From contig NBIV01000224.1 in the NCBI GenBank assembly GCA_003194525.1, forward strand, positions 1 to 64,000: a stretch of DNA of 64,000 nt, written 5' to 3'. Each line of letters opens with the position of its first letter. Position 1 is the first letter of the stretch. Below are positions 2,460-54,159 of the stretch, in pieces. The notes beneath the pieces were generated by a model that was not told where the DNA came from, searched no databases, and saw nothing but the letters and a program-made list of their open reading frames with translations. The stretch is from Gracilariopsis chorda. Lineage: Eukaryota > Rhodophyta > Florideophyceae > Gracilariales > Gracilariaceae. Position numbers and translations under genes: made by a program.

Positions 2460-2880
2460 TGCTGTGTTCTTTGTGCTGCAGAGGAACAGGATATTTGATC
2501 GAGGAAAGACCAGATGTTCGGGCTCACAACGAAGTTCGGAAGCAGCGAAGGGCACATAGAAGCCTTATGAGAACCAGATACCCTCAGACTGCGTCATGCA
2601 TTTTATTTTCTTGTATTGTCTTTTACGTTGGCAATACAAGTATGATTCGAAATTGGAAAAGGTCCAGAAACAACAATTCAAACAGAACTGCCGAAACGAA
2701 AATGGCAAACCTTTTCTGAAAGCTCACTGTCTCAGTGATGAAGATAATGTACTCTCTATCTCTACACGACAGCGTACGGGACAGCTGATACAGCGGATAG
2801 GCACATTGTTCTCAAGTCTTTGGATATGCTGTTGAGCTTTTGCGTCATTCTCTTGCATTTGTGTGACGTTAACGTTTAGA
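2460..2880. promoter_or_regulatory. Divergent intergenic region of CACTA-like element
   Basis: About 420 bases separate the start codons of the minus-strand partner ORF and the plus-strand transposase, so any promoters must lie here and may be shared. I see no clear TATA box or repeated binding motif. The regulatory role is inferred from gene orientation. Confidence 0.3.
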
Positions 2881-5800: not shown

Positions 5801-6366
5801 GTGTTCATGAAGTAGGGTTCAGATCACGTTTTTGCTTCTACAGTGAAAATAAGGTCCAGAATGCCACCACTAAACTAGATCCAGCCGCTTTGCACAATAT
5901 GACTCCTCGACGGCGCGAAAATTCGAATGTTGCTTGCGAAATGGAGAATGGAAGAGCTGTAGATGTATACTATGGACGTCTCTTGATGCTGTTTGACTTC
6001 AAGGTGGACTCCAACCTTTCAGAAAGATGGAAGCATTGGCAGCAATCATACAACGTTGCACTTCTTGATTGGGTCTCTGGTTTGGAAGCTGGCACTCAAG
6101 GACAAGTGTACAAGAGAGGCCGGTCAGTCGATGCATTTGGAATAAAGACGGTAGAAGATATTGCGATCATATCTCGATTGATTTCAGTTGTCGATCATGT
6201 AGTTCCTTCTGGAAGCTCGCAGTCACGGGGACGGCACCAATGCTACTTTATTGACGAAAGGAGACTGTCGGATAACTTGCTTCGAAATGATCAGGAATCA
6301 TTGAATGGCTCCCAGAAAGTTCTTCGAGGAATGAGGGGTGAGAACGTAACCTTCAGGCATACCTGA
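2881..6366 (+). pseudogene. Tnp2-like CACTA/EnSpm transposase with two in-frame stops
   Basis: One reading frame runs from ATG 2881 to the stop at 6364-6366, interrupted only by TGA at 3529-3531 and TAG at 4582-4584. The N-terminus has a Cys-rich segment followed by VSRNTMLRHRR, as in many Tnp2 proteins. A second zinc-like segment (C-x-C-VCG, near 4110-4155) precedes the core. Core motifs are NDGFQAF (first acidic residue), PIAAIICNFHP, FVPGPTEPSDLQSFLGPL, then GHNAKFPCRYC, PIDIMHLFYNIGKNI and YWMERYIGWILSRMNARN. These match the Tnp2 family, a DDE transposase of the CACTA superfamily that cuts and pastes DNA. Apart from the two stops the frame is intact over more than 1100 codons, so inactivation looks recent, or the stops are sequencing errors or recoded. 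No terminal repeats were found. Confidence 0.8.
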
Positions 6367-6811
6367 TATCCCTTCTGTTTACATAGTAGCTGAAACACCG
6401 CTCTTCTTTTGCGTGCGTACGAGATGGTGCATTTGTGATGCAGCGCGGAAACGCCCAAACCACTTTTATGTCACACCCAATGCGCGTGCAGGAGCAGGAC
6501 TGAGTACGAAGGTGACGTCAAACTGGTTCCAAGTATTGAAAGAGCATGGTGAAAGTAGGGGATGCAGAGCAGAATGAAGAAGGCTGTTCTGAGTGTTAAT
6601 GGATGCGAATGTGAATATGACTTTGGAAAGCGGCTAAAACGGCATGAGATCCTCAAAGATAGCAGAATCATACATGGTTACGTAAATGAACTTGGAGCTG
6701 TGAGGTGAGCTCTAACTGGAGCATCTTGGTTGTTAGAAATATGAACTAAGAGAAATTAATGGAGAATAACTTGAGCGGGCGTGGACAATCATGATGTTCA
6801 GAAGTCCGAAC
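6367..6811. other. Intergenic, no gene seen
   Basis: No supported coding frame. The sequence from about 6560 weakly resembles the 246-bp tandem unit that follows and may be a more diverged copy of it. Confidence 0.35.
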
Positions 6812-7560
6812 GATGCATCTGGATGTTTGCAGGATCAGACGCGAAGGAACACTAAGAAAGGTGCCTGAGAGAGCTTGGATGGACATGCTGCGCGACCGTA
6901 CAGAAGTGCTTGAGATTAGACGGTGGTGTCAAGAACCATGTGTAAGTCATGGCTTTCTGTAACTAGGAGTGTGGATGGACTACATTCTGCGAAGTGGTTT
7001 TATCGCTACGTCTTTAATGTATCTCAATGGTGCTCATTCCGAGCTTCTTTTCAAGGCGCGATGAGTGTATGTGGAGTGTGGACGAGAATCGAGAGAAAAA
7101 GGGGAACTTGAGTGTGCTTGGATGTCTCTGGCGCACGGCCAGACCGAGAAGTGCTCTGGATGGGAAGATGGTGTCAGCAACCATGTATATGTGATGAGTA
7201 TCGGTAAATGTGAGTGCCGATGGACTGCATTCAGCGAAACGGTTTTAGCGTTGCCCGTTTTCATGGGATTCAAGGGTGCTCATTTCGAGCTTGTTATGAG
7301 GGCGTGATGAGTGTGCGTGGAGTGTGGAAGAGCGAGATGAAAAAGCGTAGTATGAGTGCGGTTGGATGTATCTGGTGCACTTCCTTAAGGAAGTGCTCTG
7401 GACGAAACGGTGGTGCCCTAGACAATACGTATGTCATAGTGTTCTGCAAATATGAGTGTCCATGGATTGCATTCTGCGTAAAGTTTTTCAAAGTGCGCTT
7501 TGGAGGCATCCAAGGGTGCCCATTTGCAACATCCCCTGAACGCATGATTAGTGCGCGTGG
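6812..7560. repeat. Tandem repeat, about 246-bp unit, three copies
   Basis: Three diverged head-to-tail copies start near 6815, 7061 and 7307, with the third ending near 7547; spacings are about 246, 246 and 240. Recurring landmarks in each are ATGAGTGT..GTGGAGTGT, GAAGTGCTCTGGA, TGGACTGCATTCTGCG, and CAAGGGTGCTCATTTCGAGC. Divergence between copies is considerable. The short ORFs here change frame from copy to copy, so it does not look coding. It ends at the truncated gag of Copia-like copy A. Confidence 0.7.
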
Positions 7561-9856: not shown

Positions 9857-12310
9857 CAGCTTGGAGGAGCGCAATGTGCTTGTTCAAAATTTGCACTCGG
9901 ACAATGCAGAGGAGCACATTGCGTTACAAGAAAATGATGCCAATGGTCTGCAGGGAACGTCGTTCTCACCTCCTTATACACCGGAACATAACGCAATTGC
10001 CGAGCGCATCAATCGCACCATGGAAGAAGCTTCTCGAGCTTTGCTGATTCAGGCCAACTTGCCAGAATGCCTATGGCACTATGCACTCAAATATGTTATT
10101 TGTATTCACAACAGAGTTCCACACTCTACCACCGCCTTAACTCCATACCTGTTGGTGACTGGTAATAAGCCAACATTGAAGCATGCTAGAGTGTTTGGAT
10201 GCGCAGCATATGTATTGAAAATGAACCTGGATACCAAGTTCGAGTCTCGTGTACTTGAGGAAGTGTACTTCTAGACTCCGGAGCATGGTGTTTACGAGTT
10301 TTTGGTCACTAGTGACTTTGAGATACCTCGAATTGTGAGGTCCCGGCATGTCACTTTTGATAAATCTACATTCCCTGGTGCCCCATACCTCGTAAACTAT
10401 ATGGATGACGAAAGTGCATCAGACTTGACTATAGTAGCGCTGGGTATGAGAGATCTAGTGACAGTTCGGATGAGTTTTCACTCGATGAACTCGGAGAACT
10501 TAGGTCAGACGCAGAAATCGATGCACAGGATGCACCAGACCAACCCACAGAAACTGTGAATGAGGTTCAAACTCCAACCATTGACAATGCTGCAAGCTAT
10601 ACCAATTCTGCGGAGGACGCTAACAAGGATTCTAGTGATATTGATGAGTCCAATGTTCATCCTGAACCAGAATCTCGATACCCTCCTCGCAGTCGGCGTG
10701 CACCACAGCGCTGGTGGAATATGGCTGTTGCCGCTACCTCTCAAGTCGAATTGACCACAAGTGACGACCCAACACTTCAGGAGGCATGATCTTCAACTCC
10801 ATCGGAAAGAGGACAATGGGAGAGCGCCATTGATGAAGAGCTCACATCACTAAATAACAAAGGTACCTGGGTTCCAGATGACTCACCGCAGTCACAGCCG
10901 TTACCTACACATGTCATTCTTAAAGTGAAACGCGATGCAGACGCCTCAGTGGACGGATCCCGAGTTCAAATCGTAGCAAGAGGGAACCACCAGACATATT
11001 TTCAGGATTACATGCAGACCTATGCACCCGTTGTATCTTTCAACTTGGTTCGCAAGTTCTTTTACTTTATGCTTTGCATGCAAATGTATGTCGCACAGGT
11101 TGACATCAAGACCGCGTTCCTCAATGGTGACCTAAAGGAAGACGTTTGGGTAATGTCTCCGCGTGGTATAACTGGGCTGAAGTCGCTTTGTTTTAAACTG
11201 CTAAAGGCCATATATGGACTGAAACAGGCTCACATTGCGTGGCACACCAAGTTCAGTACTGTTATTAAAGGCTTAGGATTTTAAGAACGGCCTAGTGCAC
11301 CATGCATGTTCCTGCGCAAGTTGAGCACGAATACCTATGCGTACATCCTGTTATACGTGGACAACCTTCTCATCTTCACCTCAGGTGCTGAAGAACGGTC
11401 CCGAATCTTGGAGGAGCTCAAGGCACTGTATGATCTGCGTGTTGAGGATAATGTCAGACTCTATCTAGGTGTTGAGTTTACCTGGAAGACGGACTCCAAT
11501 GGCCAGCTGTTGGGTGTAGAACTTGCACAACCCATGTATATCGAAGGGATACTGCGCAGGTTTGGACTGCAGAATTCGAAACCAGCGTCGAGCCCAATGG
11601 TGCAATCTTTATTTTCTTCACTTGATGTGGAGGAGCATAAATCACCATGTGATGTTCAATTGTATCAGCAGATGATCGGGTTTCTGCTGTACTTGGCATT
11701 GCGTATGCGTTTGGACATACTGGCTCCTGTTCTTATACTAGAGCGCTTCCAGAATGCTCCTACTGCATACTGTCATCGAGCAGCCAAACGTATAATACGA
11801 TATCTACGTGGCATTGGTGATCGTTGTTTACTGTACCGCCAAGGAAGTCTACAGTTAAATGCTTTTGTAGACTATGATTTTGCTGGCGATACCACAGATC
11901 GCAAGTCTTTGTCTGGGTATTTGATTAAACTTGTCTCCAGCTCATGTTTCTATGGTGCCCGTAAGCAGTCCTCAGTTGCACTGTCTACTGGTGAGGCCGA
12001 ATACTATGCATTGGTAATGGCTGCTCAGGAGATACTCTGGATATCACGTGTGCTCAGAGAGTGTGGAATAGCATTTGGTAAGAATGTTCCAATCCTCTCA
12101 GACAACCAATGTGCTATTGAGTGTGCTGTTGGTGAACGTTGCCCTTCTGGGCGTGCTAAGCATATAGACGTCAAGGTACACTTCATTAGACAACTACTCA
12201 AGGACACATTAATAACTGTTAATTATGTTCCGAGTGAAGACAATGACGCAGACATCCTCACCAAGCCACTTAGCCCTGCCGCTGCACGAGTGATATTGGA
12301 ACGAGCTTGA
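9857..12310 (+). pseudogene. Copia-like pol remnant: integrase, reverse transcriptase, RNase H (copy B)
   Basis: Starts inside the integrase: LHSDNAEEHIAL carries the second catalytic Asp, and PEHNAIAERINRTMEEA the Glu. The frame is broken by TAG at 10272-10274, a frameshift near 10440-10555, TGA at 10787-10789 and TAA at 11282-11284. Reverse transcriptase shows VDIKTAFLNGDL and KAIYGLKQ; the usual YVDD catalytic box reads YVDN, losing one Asp. RNase H shows SGYLIKL, ALSTGEAEYYAL, LSDNQCAIE and the C-terminal ADILTKPL typical of Copia. The 5' half (gag, protease, integrase N-terminus) is absent. A purine tract (GAGGAGGAG) and the 3' LTR follow directly. Clearly Ty1/Copia-type and dead. Confidence 0.85.
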
Positions 12311-12334: not shown

Positions 12335-13205
12335 TGTTGATGTTGGCACGTGGTGGAGTGCCTGGACGCCCTAGGACTTCATGGTAGACTACTTGGAAAC
12401 AAAGTTCCATATAACGATGGGCAGTTTTGAGCACCTCCTTTGCAAAAGCGCATATGCGTGTGTGCTCGAACCCAACGTGGGGCATATGACTGGCTACTGC
12501 ATTTGCCCTTATGCATTACATTTTTTACAAGTGGTATGCATTGTATGAGTCACAGGCACAGCATGGGCCACTTGGCATACTGCGAGTGGACCACCTACGT
12601 GCGATCTTATGACGCTACATGTGGTTTACAGGAACAGGAAGTTGTTGCAGAATTGCGATTGTGTATGCCAGCACGTGCAATGTAGGTAATGGACTTAGGG
12701 TATCGATTTGGATGCAGTGGCATGTGAGTTTGTGCTTTGTTGTAGTAATGCTGATGCACGTAAGGGATTAAACAGTGCTGTGACATGCTGGCACATTGTT
12801 GTAATGGTTTTTTCACTTACTGTGCTTCGTTGCCATGTGCTGGCATAATATTATACATGGTTGCAATGAGTTGTCATGGTTGTTTCACTTACCGTGGTTC
12901 GTTGGCATGTGCTGGAATAATGTTATGCATGGTTGTAGTGAACTGTCACCAGTTTGTGCAACACTTATTGTGTTATGTTTGAATATGATTGGTAGTACTT
13001 GGCTGTCCGCACTTAGTGGTTAGGGTTTTTCTTGTAGTTGTAGTGCACTCTAGTGGTGCTATATAAGTTGCAGATGTTGCACCTCCAAGTAAACCACCCC
13101 AAGGCTGACAACCTTCACTCTTGCTATTGTTTCATTCTTCTTCTTTGACTTCTGTCGAAGCACGACTTCAGTTATCATTATCATCAACATCAGTTTTCAT
13201 TCTCA
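12335..13205 (+). repeat. 3' LTR of Copia-like copy B
   Basis: 871 bp, starting TGTTGATG after the purine tract at 12320-12334 and ending ..TTCTCA. It is very similar along its whole length to the LTR at 20216-21085. A TATA box (TATATAAG) lies at 13060-13067. A roughly 75-bp segment (CATGGTTGTTTCACTTAC..) is duplicated in tandem around 12795-12955. The LTR end coincides exactly with the point where copy C is cut off. Confidence 0.8.
13060..13067 (+). promoter_or_regulatory. TATA box of copy B LTR
   Basis: TATATAAG preceded by GC. The same box occurs at 18557-18564 and 24395-24402 (plus) and 16426-16433 (minus), at the matching place of each LTR, so it is the likely U3/R promoter. The LTR at 20216 has the variant CATATAAG. 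Confidence 0.6.
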
Positions 13206-14779
13206 GACATGACGTCCTCAACATCGTCAACAGAGAACTCATCCGAGCTCATGGCATCCATATCATTCTCAGAACTATAAGTATAATAGGATGTACTGTC
13301 TTCATCCATATAGTTGCTAAGATATGGTGCACCAGGGTACCTATACCCATCAAAGGTGACATGACGTGGCCTTACTACTCGCGGAATATCGTCGTCATCA
13401 CTAACTAAAACCTCATAAACACCATGCTCAAGAGTCTGCAAGTACACTCCCTCAAGTGCACGAGACACGAACTTGGTGCCCGGGTTCATTATTAATACGT
13501 ATGCGGCACATAAGAATACTCTGACATACGTCCGCCTAGTTTCAGTCAGTAGGGCATACGGAGTCACGCCAGTCGTGGAGTGCGGCACTCTATTGCGAAC
13601 ATAAATCACATGTTTTAGTGCGTAAGACCACAAACATTCTGGAAGATTGGCTTGAATGAGCAAAGCTCGGGCAGCTTCAACCATTGTGCGATTGATGAGC
13701 TCTGGAATAGCATTATGTTCTGGGGAATACGATGGAGAAAAATATACCTCCTGGAGACCATTCTTGGGATTCATTTGCAGGGCAATGTACTCTTCTGCGT
13801 TGTCAGAGTGCAGTTTTCGAATAAGCACATGCTCTCCTCCAAGCTGTTTGAGCTTCTGCCTCACACCCAGGAACAGTTCACTGATCTCACACCTTTGCAT
13901 CATCAACCCAAGTACTGCGTATCGCGAGTGATCATCCACAAATCCAGACGCATAGCGGAATCGGTTTGGAAATGATGGCACTAACGGACCCATAATGTCT
14001 GAGTGCACAATGTCCCCAACGTGCTTGGCTCGTGTAAACGTGCCCACAAATGGCAGCTTATGTGCCTTGCCAAGGCGACATGACCGACATACCTCCTCCA
14101 TGCACTTAATCTTTGGGACTCCGACGACATGGTCGTGAACCTGTTGTAGGTCATGCTCATTCATAGGTGTAAGTCGGCTATGCCACAAGAAACTTGTGTG
14201 GTCGGGCGTTGCAGGAAGCATCTTGGATATGTCCGTATGGGCGATTGGGTTGGGCAAGGTGTGTAAACCAGAGCGATGATGACGACACCCATGTCCAACC
14301 CCAAACCCATCTTCATGTTGTAGGCGTACCTCTTTATCACAGAACAGTGATTGGATACCCTTGTCAGCCAAACAACCCACAGACACTCAGTTATATCCAA
14401 GATTCGGAACAAGCCGTACTTCAGACAACTTGAGGTTCACATCAAAGAAGGGTAGTATAACATCTCCTTGTTGGGTGGCAGTGACAGTGGTGTTGTCCGC
14501 TAGTTTAAGTGTCTTATCTGGTATGTCAATTAGTGTGTTTGGAACAAAAACAGATACAGAACAGAAGAAATGAGAGGTAGCACCACTCTCTGCAAATGTG
14601 TCGATGCAATCAATAACCGGCGGTACCACTGATGACTTCTCACTTGCAACTACAGCAATCTCAACCTTGGACGCCTTCCGTGATGACTTTCCGGAGCGCT
14701 TGGGCTTTGCAACTGAGTTAAGCTTCAGCTGATCCAAGATCGCTTGTGGCAAGTGGTTGTCAGGGTTATCTGGATTCAT
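13206..14779 (-). pseudogene. Copia-like protease and integrase (copy C)
   Basis: Minus-strand frame open over about 525 codons with one in-frame TGA at 14387-14389. The protease region has CIDTFAESGATSHFF; the family motif is DSGATSH, so the catalytic Asp position reads Glu. The integrase has an H-H-C-C zinc site (LWHSRL..H..CMEEVCRSCRLGKAH), then a D-D-E core: VHSDIMGP, LHSDNAEEY and PEHNAIPE. The copy is cut at 13206, where the oppositely oriented LTR of copy B begins, so reverse transcriptase and RNase H are missing. Gag lies just upstream. Confidence 0.8.
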
Positions 14780-27625: not shown

Positions 27626-28334
27626 AATCTAACAAGGCTGGATGGTCACCAGTTTCAGGTAAGCGCAATACTTACTTGCGATGCTACCAAGGTTAGGAAC
27701 AGAGGTGCAGTGGTTGAATTGGTTGGAAGTTGATGGTGATGATCCGAGTTAGAAGGTCAGAACATCCATCGGGGTTTATATAGATTTTCTAGTCTAGTTC
27801 CATCACTGCCACAAGTCGATGAAAATTCGTCCAAGTTACATGGTATGATGCTTGGTGTTCGTGCTGGCCTCCGTAAGCGACTGGTTTACCGGGTTCAGTG
27901 CCAGACCTAGTCGTTTGATGACTTGGCAGATTCCATCAATGCTGATGGCTTGTCATCAGACAAGGTCCTTGAGGATCTGCCATGGACCCAGAGTGCCAGT
28001 GATGACTTGGCACGACTGCCTCGGGAATCGTCCATGACTATTCGATCCCTGCTGTACCGCGTGAAGTGTCTGTCAACGATTTGAGTAGTAGAAAACGTGT
28101 AATTTAGAGCTAATATGTCCAAGTGGTCAACCAAGACTTCTCTGACATGAACGTATTGTCATGTCATATTGACGGGGTGTCACGCCGATTTCAACTCGGC
28201 TTTGAGGCCAGTTTTTGCATGGCAAATGGGTAACCGATCTCTTCAGGAGATCGAGTAAAATAATACTAACTGGTTTGTGCATGTTAGAACTGATGCTAAA
28301 GCCAACTATATTCAAAGAAAGGTAAATAATAACT
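27626..28334. other. Intergenic, no gene seen
   Basis: Short ORFs only, on both strands, without recognisable domains. It leads into the foldback array. Confidence 0.35.
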
Positions 28335-28440
28335 AATTCTAACCAGTGCCAGCGAATTGCAATCAAGTGCACTTAGATCAACAGTTGTCATTCAACCATA
28401 AATCAAATTTACAATTGTGCTTCTGCTACCTCTTTTCACC

Positions 28441-28460
28441 CATCCACCAACGTTTGGATG
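28441..28460. repeat. TCCA/TGGA hairpin, copy 1
   Basis: CATCCA (28441-28446) pairs perfectly with TGGATG (28455-28460). The flanking TGGCAGCATTGCA and AGCCAAAGATGGATCCGAA are shared with copies 2 and 3. Confidence 0.7.
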
Positions 28461-28580
28461 TGTGGCAGCATTGCAGGACTCTTTTTGATGCGCCAAGCCA
28501 AAGATGGATCCGAACGCATAATCGTATCTCTCCTCTCTGAGGTATTTACATGCGTATAAGGGGGCTGTTGTTTTCTAAAT

Positions 28581-28656
28581 GGGGCGTTGCGCCACAAAAG
28601 CGCTTTGCAATCCTCCGAACGCTCATGCAAAACGCTTTTTCGGCACAACGCCTCCC
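28581..28656. repeat. Long foldback module, copy 1
   Basis: Left arm 28581-28609 (GGGGCGTTGCGCC.. to TTTGCA) pairs with right arm 28626-28656 (TGCAAA.. to CAACGCCTCCC) with about four mismatches over roughly 29 positions and a 16-base loop. Confidence 0.75.
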
Positions 28657-28995
28657 TGATACTTAAAAACATCAGCAGCACCAGCATCAACAAAGCTGGC
28701 TGCTTAGTGGCTAGCACTTTCATGATAACTGCAATGCCAGCCAGCTACAGAAGGCAACGTGTCATGATTCACCTTCATTGGCCGTCATTGCAGTGAATTT
28801 AGGAACCTACACACAAACCTTTACAACTCTAACTACTCTATGCGCCGTGGCATCCGAGGTTCTATGAGCGCTATTGCAAGCGTAAAGGAGCAAAGTGCTC
28901 GAAGACCCTCCAAACGCTACTAAATCAACAAAGCTACAAAAATAATACGAAAAGCAGCACCGCCCGCTGCTGAAGGCCGCTTGTACTGGTCTAAG

Positions 28996-29038
28996 CACCC
29001 CCCGTACTATAATGATTTGCTGAACAATGAAGGGGGTG
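28996..29038. repeat. C-rich/G-rich stem preceding long foldback
   Basis: CACCCCC (28996-29002) pairs with GGGGGTG (29032-29038). The related copy at 29474-29520 pairs AACACCC with GGGTGTT. The loop contains the conserved GTACTATAATGATTTGCT-like sequence. Each lies directly before a long foldback module. Confidence 0.65.
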
Positions 29039-29050
29039 TTGTTGATTGAC

Positions 29051-29127
29051 GGGAGGCGTTGCGCCAAAACATCTCTTTGCGCACCCACTTCAGTGCATGC
29101 AATGTCTACTTTGGCGCAACAACTCCC
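29051..29127. repeat. Long foldback module, copy 2
   Basis: Outer arms 29051-29068 (GGGAGGCGTTGCGCCAAA) and 29110-29127 pair at 16 of 18 positions. The same module recurs at about 30005-30083 and 30541-30617 with lower pairing. Confidence 0.75.
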
Positions 29128-29218
29128 CGCCAATTAAATGATTCAGCAGCAGCAGCACCAAAGATCGAAAAGTATTAGCTGCCAGGCTGCTGCTGCATGT
29201 TGACTGCTGCTGCTGCTC

Positions 29219-29259
29219 ATTGGCTGGCACTACAGTAAATGACTGCAGTGCCAGCCAAT
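29219..29259. repeat. Palindromic GGCTGGCACT module
   Basis: Thirteen perfect base pairs: ATTGGCTGGCACT (29219-29231) with 29247-29259. The 15-base spacer itself pairs CAGT with ACTG. Related copies lie at 28709-28743, 29662-29682 (8-bp stem, 5-base loop), 30195-30233 and 30718-30797. CAG/CTG-rich tracts flank it at 29144-29157 and 29187-29217. Confidence 0.75.
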
Positions 29260-29337
29260 TGAAATCAAGTGCACTTAGATAGTCATGTGATTGTCAAAAG
29301 CAAAACAAATATAAGGTGAGGCCTCTAGTACGTCTTC

Positions 29338-29363
29338 GGATCCAAATACCAATGTTTGGATCC
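29338..29363. repeat. TCCA/TGGA hairpin, copy 2
   Basis: GGATCCAAA (29338-29346) pairs perfectly over nine bases with TTTGGATCC (29355-29363). The stem differs from copies 1 and 3 on both arms. Confidence 0.7.
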
Positions 29364-29842
29364 GGCGCAGCATGCAAAACCTTCATTGCCGCGCAAAGCC
29401 AAACATGGATCCGAAGCCATATCTCAACCCCCCCGTACAATAATGATTTACTTCTCAACGAGAAGGGTATCTGAACACCCCCTGTACTATATTGATTTGC
29501 TTCTGGACAAGGAGGGTGTTGTTGATTGAAAAGACGCGTGGCTAAAAAACTGCCATTGCACTCCCCCTTGAGCGTATGAAAAAAATTCAGGAGCACCAGC
29601 AGCACATGCAGCAAAGCTCATTAGTTGCTGCTTTATATTGAATGCCGGTGCTGCTCAGTGGCTGGCACTACAGCAGTGCCAGTGACTCCGCTGAACAGTG
29701 GGTGGCACTGCTGTCATTTTGACAGTGCGAGCCAGTTACATTCCAGTATACTCTACACAGATTACTGCCATGCGGGCCAGCTGCGCACTCAATGTCAACT
29801 TTATTCCATATTTACTCTCGGCGCTGAGGATCTTATTGGTTT

Positions 29843-29882
29843 GCAGGCCGTTTGCGGGCAATAGCGAGCACAAACGGGCTGC
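29843..29882. repeat. GCAGGCC hairpin, copy 1
   Basis: GCAGGCCGTTTG (29843-29854) pairs at 11 of 12 positions with 29871-29882. Copy 2 at 30378-30421 pairs TTGCAGGCC with GGCCTGCAA perfectly. The surrounding 150 bases (about 29815-29965 and 30350-30500) are homologous at a 535-base spacing. Confidence 0.65.
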
Positions 29883-30874
29883 AGATCACCCGAAGTCACC
29901 CTCATACAGCGGTGCACAGCCCCTTTCGTGGCCGATGGCCGCTTTCTCTTCTCTCTCCCATCTTTAGCATTTCTTTGCCTACAACGGAGGTGATGTGGAC
30001 TGATGGGAGGTGTTGCCCCAAAACCTCGCTTTGAACGCTCCCGTATTTGCATGCAAAATGGCATATTGGCTCAATGTCTCCCTGCTACTTCAAAAAATCA
30101 GCAGCAGCAAGAGCAGTAGCAAAGCGTACAGTGCATTGGCTGCTGCTGCATGTTGATTGGCTGCTGCTGCATGTTGACTGGCTGCTTCTTTCTTAGTGGG
30201 TGGCACTATATTAAGGTCTGCCGTGCTAGCCACTCTGCAGCAAGCAGGTGTAGCCAAGTGGCATAAGTAATTAGCTGCCCTTTATTGCCGCTCCACCTTG
30301 CACTAGATATCTCAAAAAAGAGCCGTTTATAGCTTCCCAGTTTCAAATTCATTCTCGGCGCCGCATTGCTTATTGGATTGCAGGCCGTTCGTGAGCGTTA
30401 GTGATCAAAAGTGGCCTGCAAATCCCCCAAATTCAGCCCCATTCAGCGCTGGGCAGCGCCACTCCCATTCGAAGGCCACTTATTCTCGCCTTCCGCCCTT
30501 ATAGATTTGTAGAGGGATGAGGGGTTATATGTTGGCTGAGTGGAGGCGTTGCTTCAATGAACACTTGCAAATGCCTCCGTACGAGCATGCAAAAACCTCT
30601 CTTGGCGCAAGGCCTCCGTTTCATTCACAAAAGTCAGCAGGAACAGCAGCAAAAGCAGCAACAGCAAAGCTCAAAGCCCGTTGGCTGGTGCTGTATATTG
30701 ACTGCCGTTGATGCGCAGTGGCTAACAGTACAGCAGGGCCAGCCAAACCACTTAACAGTGGTTCGCACTACAGCAAATGACTGCAGTGCCAGCCAATAGC
30801 GATAGAGGGCATTTAGAACGCCACGTGTCGGTGAAAAGTAAGTCAAATTCACAGGTTTGCCTCTATTACCTCTT

Positions 30875-30902
30875 CATGTCCATCAACCAAAGTTTGGACA
30901 TG
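30875..30902. repeat. TCCA/TGGA hairpin, copy 3
   Basis: CATGTCCA (30875-30882) pairs perfectly over eight bases with TGGACATG (30895-30902). Confidence 0.7.
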
Positions 30903-30965
30903 CCGCAGCATGCAGAAATCTCTTCGCTGCGCAGCTAAGCCAAAGATGGAGCCGAAGGCATATTT

Positions 30966-31681
30966 TTGTTTTCATGTAAATCAATATACTGAGCAGAGTG
31001 TTGGGATAAAGGGAGAAAATACGCCACTGCAGTTTCGTAGAACAGCAGAGCCTATGGAGAGTTTTTGCCGAGCCCCTTGCGTTACTTCTCGACGTCTCGT
31101 TCGACATGTGTATTCTTCTGACGGCTAAGCCCCCGTTTGGCCCTTCTATATTGTCTATTCGACCAAGATGTTGGCCTCATATGAGGTCAGCAGGTCTGAG
31201 ACAAAAACGATTTGACTTCCGGCTCAGAAAAAAATTGTTGTCGAACTGGGGATTCAAATCCAAAGAGTCTAAGCACAAACAAGCAATTTTAAACGGCTTA
31301 TTTATGCTTATATGCTTCAAAATCTGTAGCAATAGGTAGTTGTAACAACTTAGTTGACTCCAAACAATTGAGAAGCTGTAGTAAACCCGAGTTCAAACCT
31401 CGCTGGGTTTCTTCAAACTCTAAAAATCCTTCAGGATCTCGACCGATTCTTGTAATAATTATTTCTAAGAACGCATACGCACCCACTTGAGCAACAGAAA
31501 AAATACGGTGAAATCTGTTAAAGGGGTTGTTTTGCCATAGAAGTAATTAAATATTGCAAGGTTCATAACGCAGATTGAATCAGTAGGGGGCATAAGGTAA
31601 TTGAACTTTTGCGTTTGTCAACAGCATAAAAAAGCGTTGATTTTAGTTCCATAAACGAGGTTGCGGCATGTGTTTGCAGTA
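30966..31681. other. Intergenic between foldback array and inverted arms
   Basis: No supported gene. A 16-base motif TTGGCCTCATATGAGG, partly palindromic, lies at 31171-31186 and recurs at 37654-37669 on the far side of the inverted arms. From about 31250 the sequence is AT-rich. Confidence 0.4.
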
Positions 31682-33240
31682 CAACCAATCGGGCATCAAC
31701 TACCAGAGGGGTAGTTCATTTGGAAAATCTTTGTCGGGAGTGCAACAAGGGCTCGACCTGAACGGTGGAAGATGAGTAACGGAATGGGTTTGGCAGCAAA
31801 AAACCGCAAGGCGCGCAAGATAACAAGGCAGGCTTACCGTAACCAGTTTGTAATGTTCGTAGTACGGCGCACCCGGGTTAGCAAAGCCTGAATAGTCGTA
31901 GCTAAACCAAGAGGTTGACTGTAGAAACCAGTTAGTATCACACTTAGCCAAGAGGTGCTTGCCTTTACCATCCTTGGTGAGGGAGCACTGCACCCACCTT
32001 AAGGGTGAGTGATGATCAACCTTAGGTGCACTCGGTTACGTGGCATACGTTGGGGCCCGCCTTAGTGGCATGGCCCCACAACATAGTAGCGTGGTGTCAT
32101 TACCTATCTGAAATAATTAAATAAACTAGTAAACTAATTAGTTAGACACTCTAACCCACGTGGCACAATCACCAATTGGTCCAGCGCGCGTTGCACTGCC
32201 AATGTGGTCAGATCTCACTGTATCACAGACCACCCTCCTACCGAAAGGCATGCCCTCGTGGCTGTACACCGGTGCGCAGCGGCCAGTGTCGGCGAACCAG
32301 TTTTGGCAAAAACTTCGGCGCGTGGCGCAGCGTGCGTAACCATTTGGTAATCGGCTGGACGGTCGGCCGTGCATTCCCTTGCGGTAGATACAGTCCCGAG
32401 GGTTCCCAATTGTCCTCAATAACACGTCAAATACCCGTTGGTCACTTGCCTCTTCGGAATAGCGCGACACTCCCCTTCGGGGTTGGTGCTTTTCGTTTTT
32501 TTTCCGTTGACTTCTTCCCGTGGGCGCGTGCGCAACAGCCGTGCTTTCGCCACTTGGTTGCCTGACAACTTGAATTTGCGCTGCACTTTCGCGGTTTCGG
32601 GTCCCTGAATTAGACCCCTCTACCTTCGGTCGGTATTACCCCTTCGGTGTATTGTAGGTGAGACGTACGCGCACCACGTGAATGCCCGTTGGTCTTCCTC
32701 CCAATTGGTTAGTCCTGATCCGACACGTTATGCTTCTCCCCCTCGAAGAAGGGGTAAAACTTTTGGACTTGGAAGAGCGAGAGGCCTCGCCAGCACATCC
32801 ACCGAATGGTTCTGGCAAGGCGCCCCCGCGGAGTCATGCTCCTCTCACGTCTACACAGGACATCGATTCCAAGTGGGATGGGCCAGATACCCATTCAGGT
32901 CACTCCCAGCGGAGGGAACCGTCTTCCACCCTTCGGCGTTTTAACCGTGCCTCGAGGCCGTTCACCGATGGGTCGTCGCCAACAGGCGATGAGGCTCCTC
33001 CAGCGGTCATGGAACGAGGTCCTGACCACTATTTTAGCACTCGGAACGTCTCGCCTGGTCGGTTTCTTTCCTCTTCGCCAGCCGGATTTCACACATTCCC
33101 AATTGATTTGGCGTCTGCAATGACTCTCCACCCTCGGATGGGTCCCTACGGGGGCATTTCCAAACGTGTTACTCGCTCTTAATCCCGGGAAGATTCGCTG
33201 ACTCCAAGTAGTGCTCGGGACGGCAGTCGCAGACACCCAA
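31682..33240. repeat. Left arm of large inverted repeat
   Basis: Inverted copy of 35536-37094. Between 31772 and 33180 the arms differ by only a few substitutions and rare one-base length changes. From 31682 to 31771 they still align without gaps but at roughly 70 percent identity, and after 33180 identity again drops. ORFs in the arms occur in several overlapping frames. The most protein-like, at 32682-33182 plus, reads MPVGLPPNWLVL and later FTDGSSPTGDEAPPAV, and has an equivalent at 35666-36094 minus that ends earlier. I do not recognise the product. Confidence 0.85.
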
Positions 33241-34499: not shown

Positions 34500-35583
34500 T
34501 ACAGTGTATCTCCTACCATTGTTCTACGCCAAGCTCGTCACGTATGATATCCACCAGGTCCTTCGACATACGAAAGATATGGCCAACAGGATACAGAGCG
34601 TGAGCCGGAAAGTTAGAATCATTAGACTTAGTAAGCCAAGTCATGCTCTTTCGAGCCGTCTGAACAGATATAAAAGCCGTCATGGTCGCAAACTCTGCAA
34701 GGGCAATGGTCCAGACGGTACCTGCAAAAGAGGAGCTATCTATAATAGCACTGCTAAAGCAGGCTAAAACTGGAGGGGTTGGGACGTCTAAAAACTGGCA
34801 TACTTCGTAGTGCTCTCATCAACTAGGTCGTGGCACATACATCTTACGGCGCATCGCATCGTCTTGCCAGAAGAATTGTACTAGGTTGTAAGTGTGCATA
34901 ATCTGCACGTTAGCCCGACGGTGTCGAAGGCGAAACTCGTGAGCCGAGTCCCCAGCCCACCGTTCACGGTCCATAAACCAGGTGGTATGCAACGGTTTGT
35001 CGAAGCAATCCAAGTCACCGTGATACCGCATGGCCGAAGAATGGGGACCCATATCGTATAAGGACCAAACCACTGGGCGGAAATAATTTACCTCTTCGGG
35101 ACCGCGGACGAAGAGAAGGTCCGACGGAACCATTGGAAGTACAACATACAAGAAGTCTGTATGAGGCCGCTTGGAATCAAACACCACCAAGCGGTTGAGC
35201 TGCCCGTTTCGGCTACCAGGTGCTGGAGGAGCCCTATAGGTGGGAATTTGCGCGAGGCACTCGCAATCCAATCAGCTTTAAGTAACATAGGTATCCACGG
35301 AGGGTCGACGGTATTAGTTCGGAGCCTGCACCGAGTTGGTATTGATAGGCCAGTAATTGGAATTGAAGATGCCGTCAATGTCCTCCCGAGCGGTTCCATA
35401 ACCACCTTGGCGGTGAAACATTTCACCAACGGGAAGAGGACACGAACTCGGTTGACCCATAAGCGAAACAGCTGCCAGAGCGGTGTGAGAAGTCCCAGGG
35501 GCTGGAACCGGGTCCGAATAGTTGCTCTGAGACGCCAAAGGGTGTCCACCACCACGGCCTTGACCCCTACTCGGAGTCTGCAA
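34500..35583 (-). pseudogene. Broken ORF set in core between inverted arms
   Basis: Read on the minus strand, three successive frames look like one former protein. They are 35583-35314 (starts in a GQGRGGGHP stretch), 35271-34819 (VFDSKRPHTDFLYVVLPMV.. to MRRKMYVPRPS), and about 34805-34507 (EHYEVCQFLDVPTPPVL.. to KDLVDIIRDELGVEQW). Stops or frameshifts separate them. They continue in the direction of the ORF in the right arm (35666-36094 minus), so right arm plus core may be one element and the left arm a partial inverted copy. Function unknown; gag-like is a guess. Confidence 0.35.
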
Positions 35584-37094
35584 AACCCCAGGATTGGGAG
35601 CCGGTTACCGGTTTGGGAATGCCCTCGTAGGGACCCATCAGAGGCTGACGGTTCATTGCAGACGCCTAATCAATTGGGACTGTGCGAAATCCAGCTGGCG
35701 ACCAGGAAAGAGACCGACCAGGCGAGACGTTCCGAGTGGTAAAATAGTGGTCAGGACCTCGTTCCATGACCGCTGGAGGAGCCTCATCGCCTGTTGGCGA
35801 CGACCCATCGGTGAACGGCCTCGAGGCACGGTTAAAACGCCGAAGGGTGGAAGACGGTTCCCTCCGCTGGGAGTGACCTGAATGGGTATCTGGCCCATCC
35901 CACTTGGAATCGATGTCCTGTGTAGGCGTGAGAGGAGCATGACTCTGCGGGGGCGCCTCGCCAGAACCAATCGGTGGATGTGCTGGCGAGGCCTCTCGCT
36001 CTTCCAAGTCCAAAAGTTTTACCCCTTCTTCGAGGGGGAGAAGCATAACGTGTCGGATCAGGACTAACCAATTGGGAGGAAGACCAACGGGCATTCACGT
36101 GGTGCGCGTACGTCTCACCTACAATACACCGAAGGGGTAGTACCGACCGAAGGTAGAGGGGTCTAATGCAGGGACCCGAAACCGCGAAAGTGCAGCGCAA
36201 ACTCAAGTTGTCAGGCAACCAAGTGGCGAAAGCACGGCTGTTGCGCACGCGCCCACGGGAAGAAGTCAACGGAAAAAAACGAAAAGCACCAACCCTGAAG
36301 GGGAGTGTCGCGCTATTCCGAAGAGGCAAGTGACCAACGGGTATTTGACGTGTTATTGAGGACAATTGGGAACCCTCGGGACTGTATCTACCGCAAGGGA
36401 ATGCACGGCCGACCGTCCAGCCGATTACCAAATGGTTACGCACGCTGCGCCACGCGCCGAAGTTTTTGCCAAAACTGGTTCGCCGACACTGGCCGCTGCG
36501 CACCGGTGTACAGCCACGAGGGAATGCCTTTCGGTAGGAGGGTGGTCTGTGATACAGTGAGATCTGACCACATTGGCAGTGCAACGCGCGCTGGACCAAT
36601 TGGTGATTGTGCCACGTGGGTTAGAGTGTCTAACTAATTAGTTTACTAGTTTATTTAATTATTTCAGATAGGTAATGACACCACGGTACTATGTTGTGGG
36701 GCCATGTCACTAAGGCGGGCCCCAACGTATGCCACGTAACCGAGTGCACCTAAGGTTGAGCATCACTCACCCTTAAGGTGGGTGCAGTGCTCCCTCACCA
36801 AGGATGGTAAAGGCAAGCACCTCTTTGCTAAGTGTGGTACTAACTGGTTTCTACAGTCAACCTCTTGGTTTAGCTACGACTATTCAGGCTTTGCTAACCC
36901 GGGTGCACCGTACTACGAACATTACAAACTGGTTACGGTAAGCCTGCCTTGTTATCTTGCGCGCCTTGCGGTTTTTTGCTCCCAAACCCATTCCGTTACT
37001 CATCTTACACCCTTCAAGTCAAGATCTTGTCGCGCTTCCACCAAATGTTTTCCAAACGGACCACCCCGCTGGTGTATGACACCTGATTGGTTGT
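35536..37094. repeat. Right arm of large inverted repeat
   Basis: Partner of 31682-33240. Matching positions sum to about 68776 along the whole length, so the arms are co-linear and nearly gap-free. The high-identity tract is 35596-37004; outside it identity falls abruptly on both sides. Confidence 0.85.
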
Positions 37095-39094
37095 ATCACA
37101 GCGTAAATCAGCTTTAAGTTTTATCAAGATCGAATTGAAATCGCTTGGGTCGTCGGAAGTGGTTTCTCCATTACAGACTTCTCCGCTGCCTCCCATAAAT
37201 TCATTTTGTGTTTTTGTGTCTTCAAAAAAATTGCCTTCTTTGATATTGCAGGGATAAAAAGGAACAATGCTTTGTTTAGCCCAGTTACTCAAACAATCAA
37301 GTAATCATTGAACGATTTCAGTTGTTTAAGTTGACGCTTTTCACATTTGAGACAATATAATTGACTATAGTGGCCTTACAAAGAAATCAAAAACAACATT
37401 TGCAGGTATAAACTGAGATTACAAGTTTAGCATGTTTGTAGGAATGAATGAAGAATTCAAGACATATATCAAATACAGCTGTCATTCTGATGGTTTTTTG
37501 GGAGTTGAGATGTTTTAATGGTTAAGTAAAAACGTGATGAGAGTATGGAGTATCATTTGAGCTCTGCCGGAGTAAACAAGAATTCAAACTATGTAGCGGA
37601 ATAAAAATCTTTACAAAATAACCTTGGTTACAAAATTTGTGATGCAATCAATTTTGGCCTCATATGAGGCCATTGGTCAAGTAGACACTAGCTCTGTGTA
37701 TTTTCTCTTCTTGTCATTTTCGTGCCATGTAGCGCAATGTACTTTCCAATTTGCGATTTGATTCTTTGCAAGGGCGATGATCCTGAAGACTTCAATACTG
37801 TAAATAAGAACAGTCTTCACTTGGTCACGGGCCGTGATTTCATTAATGTCCGATTTTTCATGTATTTTCTCCAAAAATGACCGCAATAATGATGATTCAT
37901 GAAGAAATCGGCGATTTGCCCTTCGATATTTACATCATGAAAAAACATGAGTTTTCACAGTTTATGCATTAGTAATCATGCAAAAAGAAGAAATGCATAA
38001 ACTTCACGAAATCGTCTTTCTGCGCGCATCCCCAGCCGTGACTCACGGCTGGGGATGCGCGCAGAAAGACGGTTATTTGGGCTTACAGTATAGCATGTGA
38101 CGTTGCTACTTTTCGGCTTTTTCGCTTTCCTTTGGGTGCTAGGGTTAACCAAGGGTTAAGTCTTCATCTACCATCGGTAACTAACCAACCAACCACATCA
38201 TTGTTCGGTGTTTCGTTGGTGGCTTTCCGTTGCTTAGAAGATTTTTGTTGATCTCTTTGCTCCCAGGAGTTTTTCTTAGATATGTTTATGACCTGAGCGA
38301 TTGAAGTATACAAGAACGACAAGGACTGGGGGTTTTCGAAATCATCAGAAAGTGGCCTGAACGAATGCTGGATTTCCTAGCGAGAGAACGCTACTTTCAA
38401 TTGAAGCGTTCTGCATTAAGTAGGAATTAAACTAGTGTACTCGTACAAGAGAGAGAGAGAAAAAGCAATGATATTTGGGGCTGCCGAAGAACACTCTTGT
38501 TGATTACGAAGGGTGAAGCGTGGAGGGTTGGAAGCTAGTCCTTAACCACTTTACCGCACGTCAAGGGGTATTTCCACAGCCCTCTACCCATGGAAAATAT
38601 AGACTGATACATTATCCTCTTCGACCCGGAGGGACAAAATAGAGGGGCCAAGATCTTCAGCCGAGTGAGCTGTAGAGCCAGGAAATGCCCAGGGACGGAC
38701 GAGGATACTCACAAAAGGAAAACATATTCGCAAGCATAGCTGGTGGGGTGACGCAGCAGAATGGCTGAGGCATCCGAACCCGCTAACGCTCGGTACAAAC
38801 GTTCCTTTGCACCTTCCAGACGTTGAGAGGGACGTTTCTTTGCTGGAAGAGTTACCTCAATTGTCCCTCTAGGTCGGTAGTTGTTGGCTTGATGAGGGGT
38901 TGGTAGGCCCTTTGAGTTTAAGAAAGCAACGTTCCATTAGCATGCTATGTTCATAGCGCTAGCCTACCACTCTAAATGAGGTCGTGAAAGTCGAGATCGG
39001 CCTCGAGGAATGCGCACTACCAACGCCGGACCTTTATTGCTGTGGCTACTACCTGAGTTTTCTCCTTCAACAAAACACAAAGCAATGGGAGTGA
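37095..39094. other. Intergenic, 3' side of ATP1
   Basis: Contains the second copy of TTGGCCTCATATGAGG (37654-37669), a perfect hairpin at 38013-38071, and a short GA-repeat near 38445-38460. Small ORFs at 37014-37292 and 37677-37886 (minus) show nothing recognisable. ATP1 transcript 3' end should lie in the last few hundred bases. Confidence 0.4.
38013..38071. repeat. Perfect 28-bp hairpin with 3-base loop
   Basis: 38013-38040 is the exact reverse complement of 38044-38071; the loop is ACT. The arms begin CGTCTTTCTGCGCGC and end CCCAGCCGTG. It is GC-rich in an AT-rich neighbourhood, about 1 kb past the ATP1 stop. It could be a transcript structure, a small foldback element, or an artefact of library folding. 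Confidence 0.85.
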
Positions 39095-40750
39095 CTAGGC
39101 GTCAAATGTGGCCAAAAACGTGGTTAGTGCGTCCTTAAGTGCCCCATCTGTTGCATCAGACACGCTACCTTCCTTTCTAATAGTGGCCAGTAGTCCGGCA
39201 TGACTATTGCGCATGTACTTCAAGTAGGCTGATTCGAATTCCTTGATCTTACTGACGGGCATCTTATCGAGGAACCCACGCACTCCAGCGTACAAGGTGA
39301 CGACTTGTTCCTCTGGCGGCATCGGCACAAACTGATCCTGTTTCAGTAATTCGTTAAGACGGTCACCACGGTTAAGCATCTGCTGAGTGGATGCATCCAG
39401 ATCAGAACCGAACTGCGCGAAAGCGGCAACTTCTCTGTGCTGCGCAAGCTCGAGTTTCATTGAACCTGCAACCTGCTTCATGGCCTTCATTTGGGCTGCA
39501 GAACCCACTCTAGACACAGATAAACCGACATTAATAGCTGGTCGTTGGCCCTTGTAGAAGAGTTCAGTTTCTAAGAACACCTGACCATCAGTGATGGAGA
39601 TGACATTGGTCGGCACGTAGGCCGACACATCACCAGCTTGGGTTTCAATGATGGGCAGTGCAGTGAGCGATCCACCACCAACGTCCTTGTTCATCTTGGC
39701 GGCACGTTCCAAAAGGCGGGAGTGGAGGTAGAAGATATCACCAGGGTAGGCTTCACGTCCTGGAGGACGGCGGAGTAGAAGAGACATTTGTCGATAGGCA
39801 ACAGCTTGCTTGGACAAATCGTCGTAGATAATGAGGGCGTGCTTGCCGTTATCGCGGAAGTACTCGCCAATAGCGCATCCAGAATACGGTGCAAGGAACT
39901 GCAACGGCGCAGCATCGGACGCGGTGGCAGCGACAATGATAGAGTACTGAAGTGCACCCGCTTCCTCAAGGGTCTTTGCGAGCTGCGCGACGGTGGATCG
40001 CTTCTGACCGATAGCAACGTAGACACAGTACAACTGCTTCTCAACTTCGCCGCTGTCGAAGTTTCCCTTCTGATTAAGAATGGTATCCAAGGCGACGGCA
40101 GTCTTTCCGGTTTGGCGATCTCCAATGATAAGCTCACGCTGACCGCGGCCAATGGGTACAAGAGCGTCAACTGCCTTCAGACCGGTTTGCATCGGCTCGT
40201 GGACACCCATGCGCGGCATGATACCGGGGGCCTTGACTTCGACACGTTGACGGGTTACATTGGTGATGGGACCTTTGCCGTCAATGGGGTTTCCAAGGGC
40301 ATCGACGACACGGCCGAGCATGCCCTCACCAACGGGAACGTCGACAATGGCACCGGTACGACGGCAAGTTTGGCCTTCAGAGATTTCGCGATCGTTACCG
40401 AAGACGACAATACCACAATTTCCGACTTCAAGGTTGAGCGCCATGCCCTTAAGGCCGGACTCGAACTCAACCATTTCTCCGGCTTTGCAATTGTTGAGGC
40501 CGTAAACACGCGCAATACCATCACCGATGGAAAGCACCCGACCGACCTCATCGAGCTCGATCTTCTGCTGATAATTGAGGATGCGATCCTCAATAATGGA
40601 AGAAACCTCCGCGGGATCCATGGCGGCGTGGGCGGGGGCGGAGGTTCTCAAGGCGGCGATCGGGACGGAACGGATTCCATTGGGCGCGGTGGCGATGCGG
40701 GGGGCGGCGCGCACACCGGCAAGAACGCTACGCAAGAGAGCCGGGGACAT
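39095..40750 (-). CDS. ATP1: Mitochondrial F1-ATP synthase subunit alpha
   Basis: Intact intronless frame of 551 codons with ATG at 40748-40750. The first 43 or so residues are rich in Arg, Ala and Ser and lack acidic residues, as in a mitochondrial transit peptide. The mature part begins around the conserved region [10 protein letters not shown]. Walker A is GDRQTGKT at residues 210-217. [17 protein letters not shown] (about 305-321), [11 protein letters not shown] (328-338), and the ATP synthase alpha/beta signature [10 protein letters not shown] (404-413) followed by Arg 414 (arginine finger) are all present. The protein sits in the matrix-facing F1 hexamer as the non-catalytic nucleotide-binding partner of beta, making ATP from the proton gradient. 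Length is normal for the family. It is the only intact housekeeping gene here; hairpins lie on both sides. Confidence 0.98.
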
Positions 40751-41804: not shown

Positions 41805-43355
41805 CAGTGCGCGAAATCTCTATACGACACCCCCCCGATTTAAAAGCAACGGCTTTATGTAATGTCTCACGAGGTGTAAACTTTTACTAATCTATTCGTT
41901 ACATAGAACAGTACTGAACGAGATAGAAAAACAATAAAACAAACTGTTACACAACCTTTCATTTCAAAACGGCTACCAAAAGCCGCGCAACCCCTATACG
42001 ACATAATAAAGAATATATATCTTGCAGTAGTGCTACTAGTAGCGTAGTCTTTCTACACATTCCATTGCTTTCTACACACTTCCTTCTTTCTATCCATCCA
42101 CATTTTCTTTAAAAAAAACATGCCACGCGGCACTTATTTGTCGGAGAAGGAAAAAGGCCAAATTGAAGCATTCAGGAAGACAGGATGGTCAATTTCCGCC
42201 ATATCACGTGAAGTGAAGCGTAGCCGAGATGTCGTCAAGCGGTACTTAGACAATACCAAAGGATATGGGACTAAAAAACCCACCAACAAGAAGGGAAAAA
42301 TAACCCCAGCAGCTCGACGACTGCTGGTTCGTGAAGCATCGAAGGGCGAACAAACTGCGTCCCAGCTAAAAGTCGCACTCCAATTGCCTATATCAAAAAG
42401 TAGAGTCCAACAGATACTCTCTGCAGAGGAACACCGTAAATATAAAAAGGTGAAACAGGCTCCTTCTCTAACCGACATTCACAAAACAAACCCTTTGAAT
42501 TGGGCTCGGAAAAGGCATGCGTGGTCACTTGGAAAATGGGGCCGTGTTGTGTTTTCCGATGAAAAAAATTCAACTTGGATGGTCCTGATGGTTTTGCTTA
42601 CTACTGGCATGATATGAGGAAGGAAGAAAGGGTGATGTCGAAGAGACAGAAAGGTGGTGGTGGAGTGATGGTTTGGGGAGCTTTTTCTGAAAAAGGTGTC
42701 AGCAAACTAGCTGTGTTAGTTGGCAATCAGGACTCTAAGAAGTATGTTGAAACCTTGAAAAACTATTTGCTACCTTATTCGCAAACTGTTTGCGGGACAG
42801 GATGGATTTTTCAGCAAGACAATGCAGCAATTCATACTTCTAAGTTTACTAAGGACTGGTTTGAGACTAACAATTTGGATGTTATGGAGTGGCCAGCACG
42901 TAGTCCTGATCTCAATCCAATTGAGAATCTTTGGGGAATTCTGGCTAGGCGAGTTTATGCTAATGCAAAACAGTTTGATACTGTTGTTGAGCTTACAGAA
43001 TGCATTTTGTCAGAATGGGACAAAATTTATCGCGTCACGTGCTACAATCTTGTCAAAAGCATGACAAAGCGTTGTGCTACTGTCTTAGAGAGACAGGGAA
43101 TGAAAACAGACTACTAGATTTGTTCCTTGATGTTCGAAACGTTGCTACGTGCACACCTGTCGTATAGGGATTGCGCTGTCTCAGGTAGCCTTTTTAAAGT
43201 AAAGTAAGTTTGTGTTTGCCTGTTTTATTTGAAAGTGTGTCCATTTATTTGATTCCAGATGTAGAGGAACTGGACAAAGTTTCAAGCTTGTAATGTTTAC
43301 AGAAAGCTCTTTGTTGTCATTTTAGGGGGGTGTCGTATAGAGATTTCGCGCACTG
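41805..43355 (+). mobile_element. Tc1-like transposon, near complete, IR/DR type
   Basis: 1551 bp flanked by TA on both sides (41803-41804 and 43356-43357), the expected Tc1/mariner target duplication. The terminal inverted repeats match perfectly over 31 bases and begin CAGTGCGCGAAATCTC. A second, related repeat with core CTATACGACA lies inside each end, at 41994-42003 on the left and inverted at 43159-43168 on the right. These are about 174 and 172 bases from the outer cores, an arrangement known as IR/DR in elements such as Sleeping Beauty. The perfect ends imply a young copy. Confidence 0.92.
42120..43117 (+). pseudogene. Tc1-like DD34E transposase with one frameshift
   Basis: ATG at 42120. 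The N-terminus is a paired helix-turn-helix DNA-binding region (LSEKEKGQIEAFRKTGWSIS, then ISREVKRSRDVVKRYL) followed by a second helix set (TAARRLLVREASKG-like). The frame shifts by one base in an A-run at about 42560-42567 (seven A where eight would keep frame), inside the DDE domain. After the shift it continues with LDGPDGFAYYWHD, KGGGGVMVWGAFSEKG, the second Asp in WIFQQDNAAIH and the Glu in SPDLNPIENLWG. Thirty-four residues separate that Asp and Glu, so the type is DD34E. All catalytic residues are present. The shift could be real or a homopolymer sequencing error. Confidence 0.92.
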
Positions 43356-52949: not shown

Positions 52950-54157
52950 AATACACGAAACAACAGTAAATACACTTTACTTTACGTGTATCTACGCATA
53001 GCTCAGTACTTAGTAGCATCGCTCTTCTTATCCGTAACAGCAGGGAGCGTTCTTGGTATAGAATGGTACAGCTGTTGAAGTTAATCTCCCGTTATATCGT
53101 CACATGCAGCAATGATAGCGTCCTTCAGCTCAGTTAAATTATTGTACTGCTTTCCACGTTCATAAACACGCCTAGCCATAGGTCCCCATACATTTTCACT
53201 AATATTTAAAGCTAGGGAATTTGCAGACGACGGTAGGACACATATATCTTTCTAACGCAGTCAGTTCCTTGTGTACCTAGAGGTATGTATGGATGCATTA
53301 TCCTGTTGAAAGTGTCAAGTCCGTTCTTCGCCGAAGACACCACCTACCCATGGTAATAAATTAGACTCTAGTGCCTTACAGTACCTTGTAGAATTCTGAT
53401 GTCCAGTAATAAACACCAAAGTACAGACTCCATAGAAAGATATTGCTCCCCATATCATAACCAAATCTCCTCCATTTTGACTCTTAGAAAACCGTCGAGG
53501 TTCCTTCCGAAGATCATGTCAATAGTATGCGAAGCAATCTGGAACACCGAGATTAAACTTGTTCTTATCGCTGAAAATTACATTGCACCAGAAATAGTCT
53601 TCATGAGATTTAATACGACTTGCGTATTCTATACGTGCAGTTTTATGCTTCTGAGTCATTAATGGACCGGTTTCCATTTTGCGATATTGAAGGTGTTCAA
53701 ATTGGGATAGTGATTGCTGATTTCTTCGCACCCCAAAGGGTAAATCGAGCGACGAGTTTACTTGAGAAGCTGATTGAATTTTTTTCGAGGCCTTCCTTAC
53801 TACTGCTCTCTTCTGTTCCACTGACATCATGGACTTTTGCTTAATGTTTTCATGCGGTTTAGATGTCATTTTGCGTCTCAGTGCTGATTGTACTGCTCCT
53901 AGAGAGCGGGTGATAGTGTCAACAATTTGTCGAGGAGACATTCCTTCATGTCTCAGGCCATGAATCTGGGCGTGTTCGAACTTAGAAAGACGAGGGCCTT
54001 TAGCCATGTTTGATTAGCCAAAATGCTGGGCGGAAGTCTTCAATATGTGCCCAACAAGTGTGTATTTGATGGTGGTAAAGATAGGGAACGTTTAAGCTGG
54101 TTTGAATATGGCGCGGTTTTTGTGGTAATGTATTTATTTATTGTTGTTTCGTGTATT
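52950..54157 (-). mobile_element. Tc1-like transposon, 1.2 kb
   Basis: 1208 bp flanked by TA (52948-52949 and 54158-54159). The ends match as inverted repeats over nearly 30 bases starting AATACACGAAACAACA, with one substitution and a small length difference. The transposase is on the minus strand inside. The right end lies directly against the readable part of the Harbinger nuclease at 54160. Confidence 0.8.
53060..54007 (-). pseudogene. Tc1-like transposase, broken
   Basis: Minus-strand ATG at 54005-54007. The N-terminus (LSKFEHAQIHGLRHEGMSPR, IVDTITRSLGAVQSALR) is a helix-turn-helix. The first catalytic Asp lies in FSDKNKFNLGVPDCFAYY near 53530. Beyond a stop at about 53519, the pieces HDLRKEPRRFSK, VMIWGAISFYG and a QDNASIH-like match (second Asp) can be followed. 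NISENVWGPMARRVYERGK (catalytic Glu) follows, with several frameshifts to about 53090. Confidence 0.75.
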
Positions 54158-54159
54158 TA

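Follow-up and report, generated by a model that had tools for sequence, protein, structure and literature searches.

The 64-kb window, by which we mean the whole stretch of DNA analysed here, corresponds to contig C224 of a Gracilariopsis assembly (91.3 Mb, 1081 contigs). Between 28344 and 30968 it holds a 2.6-kb array made of five non-coding units (432–537 bases), one truncated unit and a fragment of 48 bases, all head to tail and all on the forward strand. Repeat finding across 27.5–31.8 kb yields ten direct-repeat families of 22–178 nt, which bears out an earlier note on this DNA in which several kinds of module were said to recur in a similar order. The starts of the five units lie 463, 480, 482 and 537 nt apart; the period of 460–540 nt given in that note is thus the unit length. 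The note had held that no open reading frame is conserved between copies, and that a missing period or homology to a protein-coding gene would speak against its proposal; we find a shared period, no frame of 180 aa or more in the array, and an array that is itself non-coding. The borders it proposed, 28335 and 30965, shift slightly, since the first nine bases are part of a different dispersed repeat and the last unit ends at 30968. The end part of that dispersed repeat occupies 28150–28343, and its other copies are 87–90% identical (at least 39 matches, from the best 40 of 310 candidates). An artificial joining of the flanks could have faked its end, which was therefore re-tested with natural sequence; the repeat stops exactly at the position of 28343 in 33 of the 39 other copies and within 6 nt of it in the remaining six.

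The array opens with P0 (28344–28526), the 3′ part of a unit of a second type, "type-2," whose left side was removed by the dispersed repeat; U2 and U5 have 3′ parts homologous to P0, and the end of P0 directly precedes U1. Unit U1 (28527–28989) begins TCTCTCC, ends CTGG, a decayed CTTG, and is 76–78% identical across most of its length to units of other arrays. The type-2 unit U2 (28990–29421) begins TCTAAGC, and its 3′ end is truncated to ...GAAGCCATA: the last six bases are absent, and the next element begins immediately at that point. That next piece, P2 (29422–29469), is a 48-nt fragment that matches unit 5′ ends and forms a tandem pair with the beginning of U3, which Tandem Repeats Finder reports as a period of 49 at 29420–29517. 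U3 (29470–29951) runs from A|TCTGAAC to a decayed CTTC and is 70–71% identical, over nearly its full length, to units of 521–527 nt in other arrays. U4 (29952–30488) runs from TCTCTCC to a decayed CTCG and finds only partial matches among other units (131–143 nt, 76–77%). U5 (30489–30968), again type-2, begins CCTTCC and ends ...GGCATATTTTTG, a decayed CTTG, followed by T; its right border was set by comparison with complete relatives. A 5′ TC is accordingly present in U1, U2, U3 and U4, and has decayed to CC in U5. Complete relatives with the 3′ part common to P0, U2 and U5 end in GGCATATTCTTG|T or nearly so. CATA was considered as the type-2 3′ end and rejected, since of five short external copies three show CATATTCTTG|T and one shows CATATTGTTG|T, the remaining copy, at locus L067, giving no usable match. 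The window units are 48–67% identical to one another and 60–77% identical to their best relatives elsewhere (60–64%, a strong divergence, for U4 and U5), and we therefore regard the array as old.

Other repeats crowd the same window. Related repeats, nested and in both orientations, form blocks at 7.7–10.3, 11.6–17.9 and 20.2–25.8 kb, and Copia-like integrase and reverse-transcriptase pieces are found at 13190–14386 and 11306–12310 (RVT_2 and rve, below cut-offs). Transposase pieces occur at 3601–4584, 42575–43117, 54141–54719 and 60702–61559 (Transposase_21, below its cut-off; DDE_3 twice; DDE_Tnp_4). An inverted repeat of about 1.5 kb (31680–33211 and 35567–37095, 95% identical, with a 2.4-kb centre) may be a transposon whose termini are long inverted repeats. 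The gene for the ATP synthase alpha subunit, at 39095–40750, is uninterrupted.

The earlier note had placed the longest foldback of each repeat at 28581, 29051, 29528, 30005 and 30541. We folded these sites as single-stranded DNA and scored them as z values against dinucleotide shuffles. The sites are homologous, and their present folding is uneven: the foldbacks of U1 (28581–28658, z −4.81) and U2 (29051–29130, z −5.53) are strong, that of U5 (30541–30622, z −1.96) is weak, and those of U3 (29528, z −0.03) and U4 (30005, z −0.56) no longer fold. Two further foldbacks lie in U2, at 29216–29262 (z −7.52) and 29337–29420 (z −3.67); the stretch at 30878–30962 gives z −2.41, and that at 29001–29042 does not fold (z +1.03). 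Taken whole, the pieces score −9.59 (U2), −2.92 (U1), −2.34 (U3), −1.92 (U5), −0.26 (P0) and −0.21 (U4), as compared with a mean of −0.60 for 27 random control segments elsewhere in the window. One of those segments scored −14.1, and its source is presumably a near-perfect palindrome of 65 nt at 38010–38074. Because unit spacing is regular and two of the five foldbacks do not fold, the shared period is real, yet the foldback at each period has been partly lost.

Palindromes are nonetheless present in each unit, and a young unit from another array (L026, below) folds with z −6.31 when taken whole. In most of 38 aligned units the palindrome GGCCGAAGGCC stands about 10 nt before the 3′ end. Both sides have changed in nine of 50 predicted pairs, in 5 or 7 rows for five of these and in a single row for the other four, and no pair of the seven-pair long stem has changed on both sides; we do not count covariation as support, and compensatory changes do not show that selection keeps the palindromes. 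The earlier note had raised the idea of a satellite or a hairpin RNA locus with a function for the host. Tandem units with hairpins are what such a locus would offer, and satellite-like arrays carried by Helentrons have been described for the Pacific oyster (PMC7492417); set against this are the loss of two of five long foldbacks in the window, the small number of pairs changed on both sides, and the absence from the window of any Rfam family that reaches its gathering score. Nothing points to an RNA or structural role, and we consider this explanation very improbable.

The array is one of many. Genome searches were scored for the best candidates, and their counts are lower bounds. With the array as query there are at least 116 matches (best 40 of 883 candidates), two in the window and the rest on 33 other contigs; a 472-nt unit gives at least 204 matches, with 17 further contigs among the matches listed (best 40 of 806 candidates). 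The record for a Gracilariopsis genome gives 88.98 Mb and 1.71% Helitrons (PMC5970526). A regular array, L026 on contig C7, consists of head-to-tail units of about 470 nt that start with TCTC and finish with palindromes and CTTG, and it sits just downstream of a PIF1-like helicase gene. Young units begin 5′-TC and end in palindromes and CTTG-3′, and most units across loci begin with TC. The Helitron domain PF14214 has at least 151 matches in the genome (best 150 of 710 candidates), many of them on contigs that carry arrays. Matches to RepHel occur in 18 of the 20 array loci fetched, those in L024 reaching no more than 38–39% identity, and are absent from L011, which holds an autonomous 5′ region, and from L014. 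A unit lies directly before the 5′ end of an autonomous element in all ten further loci (1 nt apart in L054); these loci, like the 20, were chosen among the best matches rather than at random. The 64-kb window itself contains no RepHel remnant (best tblastn E 0.63).

A complete autonomous element, 6669 nt (6.7 kb) long, lies at L017:813–7481. Its open frame (2214–7331) encodes 1706 aa and matches PF14214 (E 2.7e-26) and PF05970 (E 6.8e-38) in Pfam, the signature of a Rep/PIF1 helicase; its best solved relative, over residues 506–1663, is Helraiser (7lcc, E 3.8e-75). The frame contains HxH, YxxxY and Walker A motifs, which we take to mark a Rep (HUH, two tyrosines) and a helicase. The autonomous partner thus encodes the two activities, Rep and a PIF1-type helicase, that are expected of a Helitron. 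Because a unit and this element match over nt 1–177 at 90% and over their last 48 nt at 83% and differ in the middle, we regard the unit as the non-autonomous counterpart of the autonomous Helitron. The idea that units are simple deletion products of the L017 copy was dropped, since only those two terminal segments match at length.

A second Helitron group is present in the genome. On contig C389 (G000:C389:4223–66104) Rep matches follow one another on a single strand at intervals of about 6.1 kb, at least ten of them on that contig, and form long tandem arrays of autonomous Helitrons; the group also occurs on C793, C838, C887, C921 and C86. Its PF14214 matches are stronger, intact ones reaching about 175–197 bits, and five of its 3.55-kb stretches (four from C389, one from C103) are 98.7–99.5% identical.

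The surroundings of the element ends follow a simple rule. Among 96 starts in 30 loci, 71 follow the end of another element, two more proved to be tandem on inspection, and 22 of the other 23 come after A, a figure that covers more than independent host sites (two of the 22 form a head-to-head pair, one is a type-2 joint and two lie inside units). At the other end, 87 of 92 hits of the end pattern precede T, the pattern giving a few false hits, some of them in coding sequence. Tandem joints between units read CTTG|TC. The earlier note had expected a transposon to show many dispersed copies with short target duplications; dispersal is evident, and at L014, an array read on both flanks, host A stands before and host T after with no target duplication. 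When the two flanks of L014, and likewise those of the window array, were joined to look for empty sites, none was found: no match spanned the joint except for one hit to the window flank that ran 13 nt past it.

Because young relatives of the units have termini in common with an element that encodes a Rep/PIF1 helicase, and because their ends obey the A|T target rule, we are confident that old, non-autonomous Helitrons without coding capacity, chained head to tail and since decayed, make up the window array. The possibility raised earlier that it consists of nested foldback elements or transposons was right as to dispersed recurrence and transposon origin; anatomically the units are Helitrons. 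The palindromes in each unit would fit a foldback (FB/Galileo-like) or MITE family, and arrays L027, L028, L019, L020 and L011 do have halves in opposite orientation. The two ends of a unit differ, however, L014 lacks a target duplication, and the opposed halves are Helitrons lying in opposite orientation, for which reason we dropped them as foldback elements; a foldback or MITE origin seems to us extremely unlikely. Nor is the array, as the earlier note supposed, of an apparently undescribed kind, since Helitrons with hairpins near their ends and in tandem copies are already known (PMC4778049; PMC5148889; PMC5876387).

Several features are those of canonical Helitrons (RepHel; Helraiser/Helibat): Rep and PIF1 helicase in one frame, a 5′ TC, a palindrome close to the 3′ end, an A|T target that is not duplicated on insertion, and non-autonomous copies with the same termini. 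The 3′ end differs, young units having CTTG where canonical Helitrons have CTRR, a deviation of one base. A single 3′ palindrome is described for Helraiser, where it acts as a terminator (PMC4778049), whereas each short copy here has more palindromes; by analogy, the last palindrome of these units may serve as their terminator. Members of the Helitron2/Helentron group such as FoHeli of Fusarium likewise occur in tandem and in some cases have hairpins at both termini (PMC5148889). The one autonomous copy examined here has neither the endonuclease nor the asymmetric terminal inverted repeat of that group: no endonuclease domain is among the Pfam matches of its 1706-aa frame up to E 0.1, and the inverted 5′ end finds at best 6 of 12 positions in the last 150 nt, against a shuffled mean of 6.3. 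Other termini are known among Helitrons in the wide sense (PMC5148889), and since protein, TC, palindrome and target all fit, the safe course is to file these elements as Helitrons in that sense, with a non-consensus 3′ end.

Tandem Helitron arrays have been cited for plants and bats (PMC5876387), and for two adjacent maize Helitrons it was proposed that serial insertion took place at an AT formed by the host A and the 5′ T of the resident copy (PMC2267711). The maize neighbours resemble ours in their direct G|T joints; what differs here is that chains are numerous, mix subfamilies, and have autonomous copies alternating with non-autonomous ones. From what is known of the family, the Rep/PIF1 helicase protein would nick at the 5′ TC and peel off one strand, transfer would stop at the palindrome that precedes the 3′ CTTG, and the copy would be inserted between A and T without target duplication. 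A resident copy would then offer a fresh target, its own 5′ T forming AT with the host A, and repeated insertion at that AT would stack copies 5′-ward with direct CTTG|TC joints. The window array would afterwards have decayed, losing two of its five long foldbacks and being cut on the left by the other repeat. On balance, we lean toward the view that chains grew mainly by serial insertion, each new copy entering at the A|TC border of one already in place.

The same elements could also have been laid down at once as rolling-circle concatemers, or multiplied by unequal crossing-over. Consistent with this, among 43 units of multi-unit loci (the false unit L009:4498 left out), 14 are closest to another unit of their own locus, where label shuffles predict 1.8; units within L025 (99.3%) and L017 (98.7–100%) are nearly identical, blocks of about 6.9 kb are repeated on C510, and head-to-tail joints have been reported on Helraiser circles (PMC4778049). 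On the other hand, the nearest relatives of 29 of the 43 units lie in other loci, and subfamilies are mixed within arrays. L028 also contains an exact head-to-head joint, GA|TC, between different elements, a single case in the 30 loci. Because insertion at AT in either orientation can produce such a joint and concatemers would not be expected to, L028 fits serial insertion better. We think it possible, if rather less probable, that concatemers or crossing-over account for the chains. Because nearest relatives lie both within and beyond the locus, local multiplication, including that of whole blocks, and separate arrival both occur. A weak sign in the direction predicted by serial 5′ insertion is that, in 10 of 13 arrays, copies elsewhere resemble the 5′-most unit more closely than the 3′-most one.

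The joint at which U2 is fused to the next element, CATA|TCTC, is reached by matches at eight of 23 places outside the window, and we read it letter by letter at five of them (C75, C212, C282, C47 and C330). Because the same joint recurs outside the window, we take it as a sign that the fused pair of U2 and its neighbour moved as one. There is about an even chance, we suggest, that stepwise 5′ growth through a rebuilt target queues mixed subfamilies into chains, and that loss of an internal 3′ terminator then fuses neighbours into a mobile composite.

The window array is of a known kind, and its value lies in the Helitron family that it names, one with long open autonomous partners. Many chains, mixed subfamilies, a head-to-head joint and recurrent fused joints make this family good material for weighing serial insertion against concatemers.
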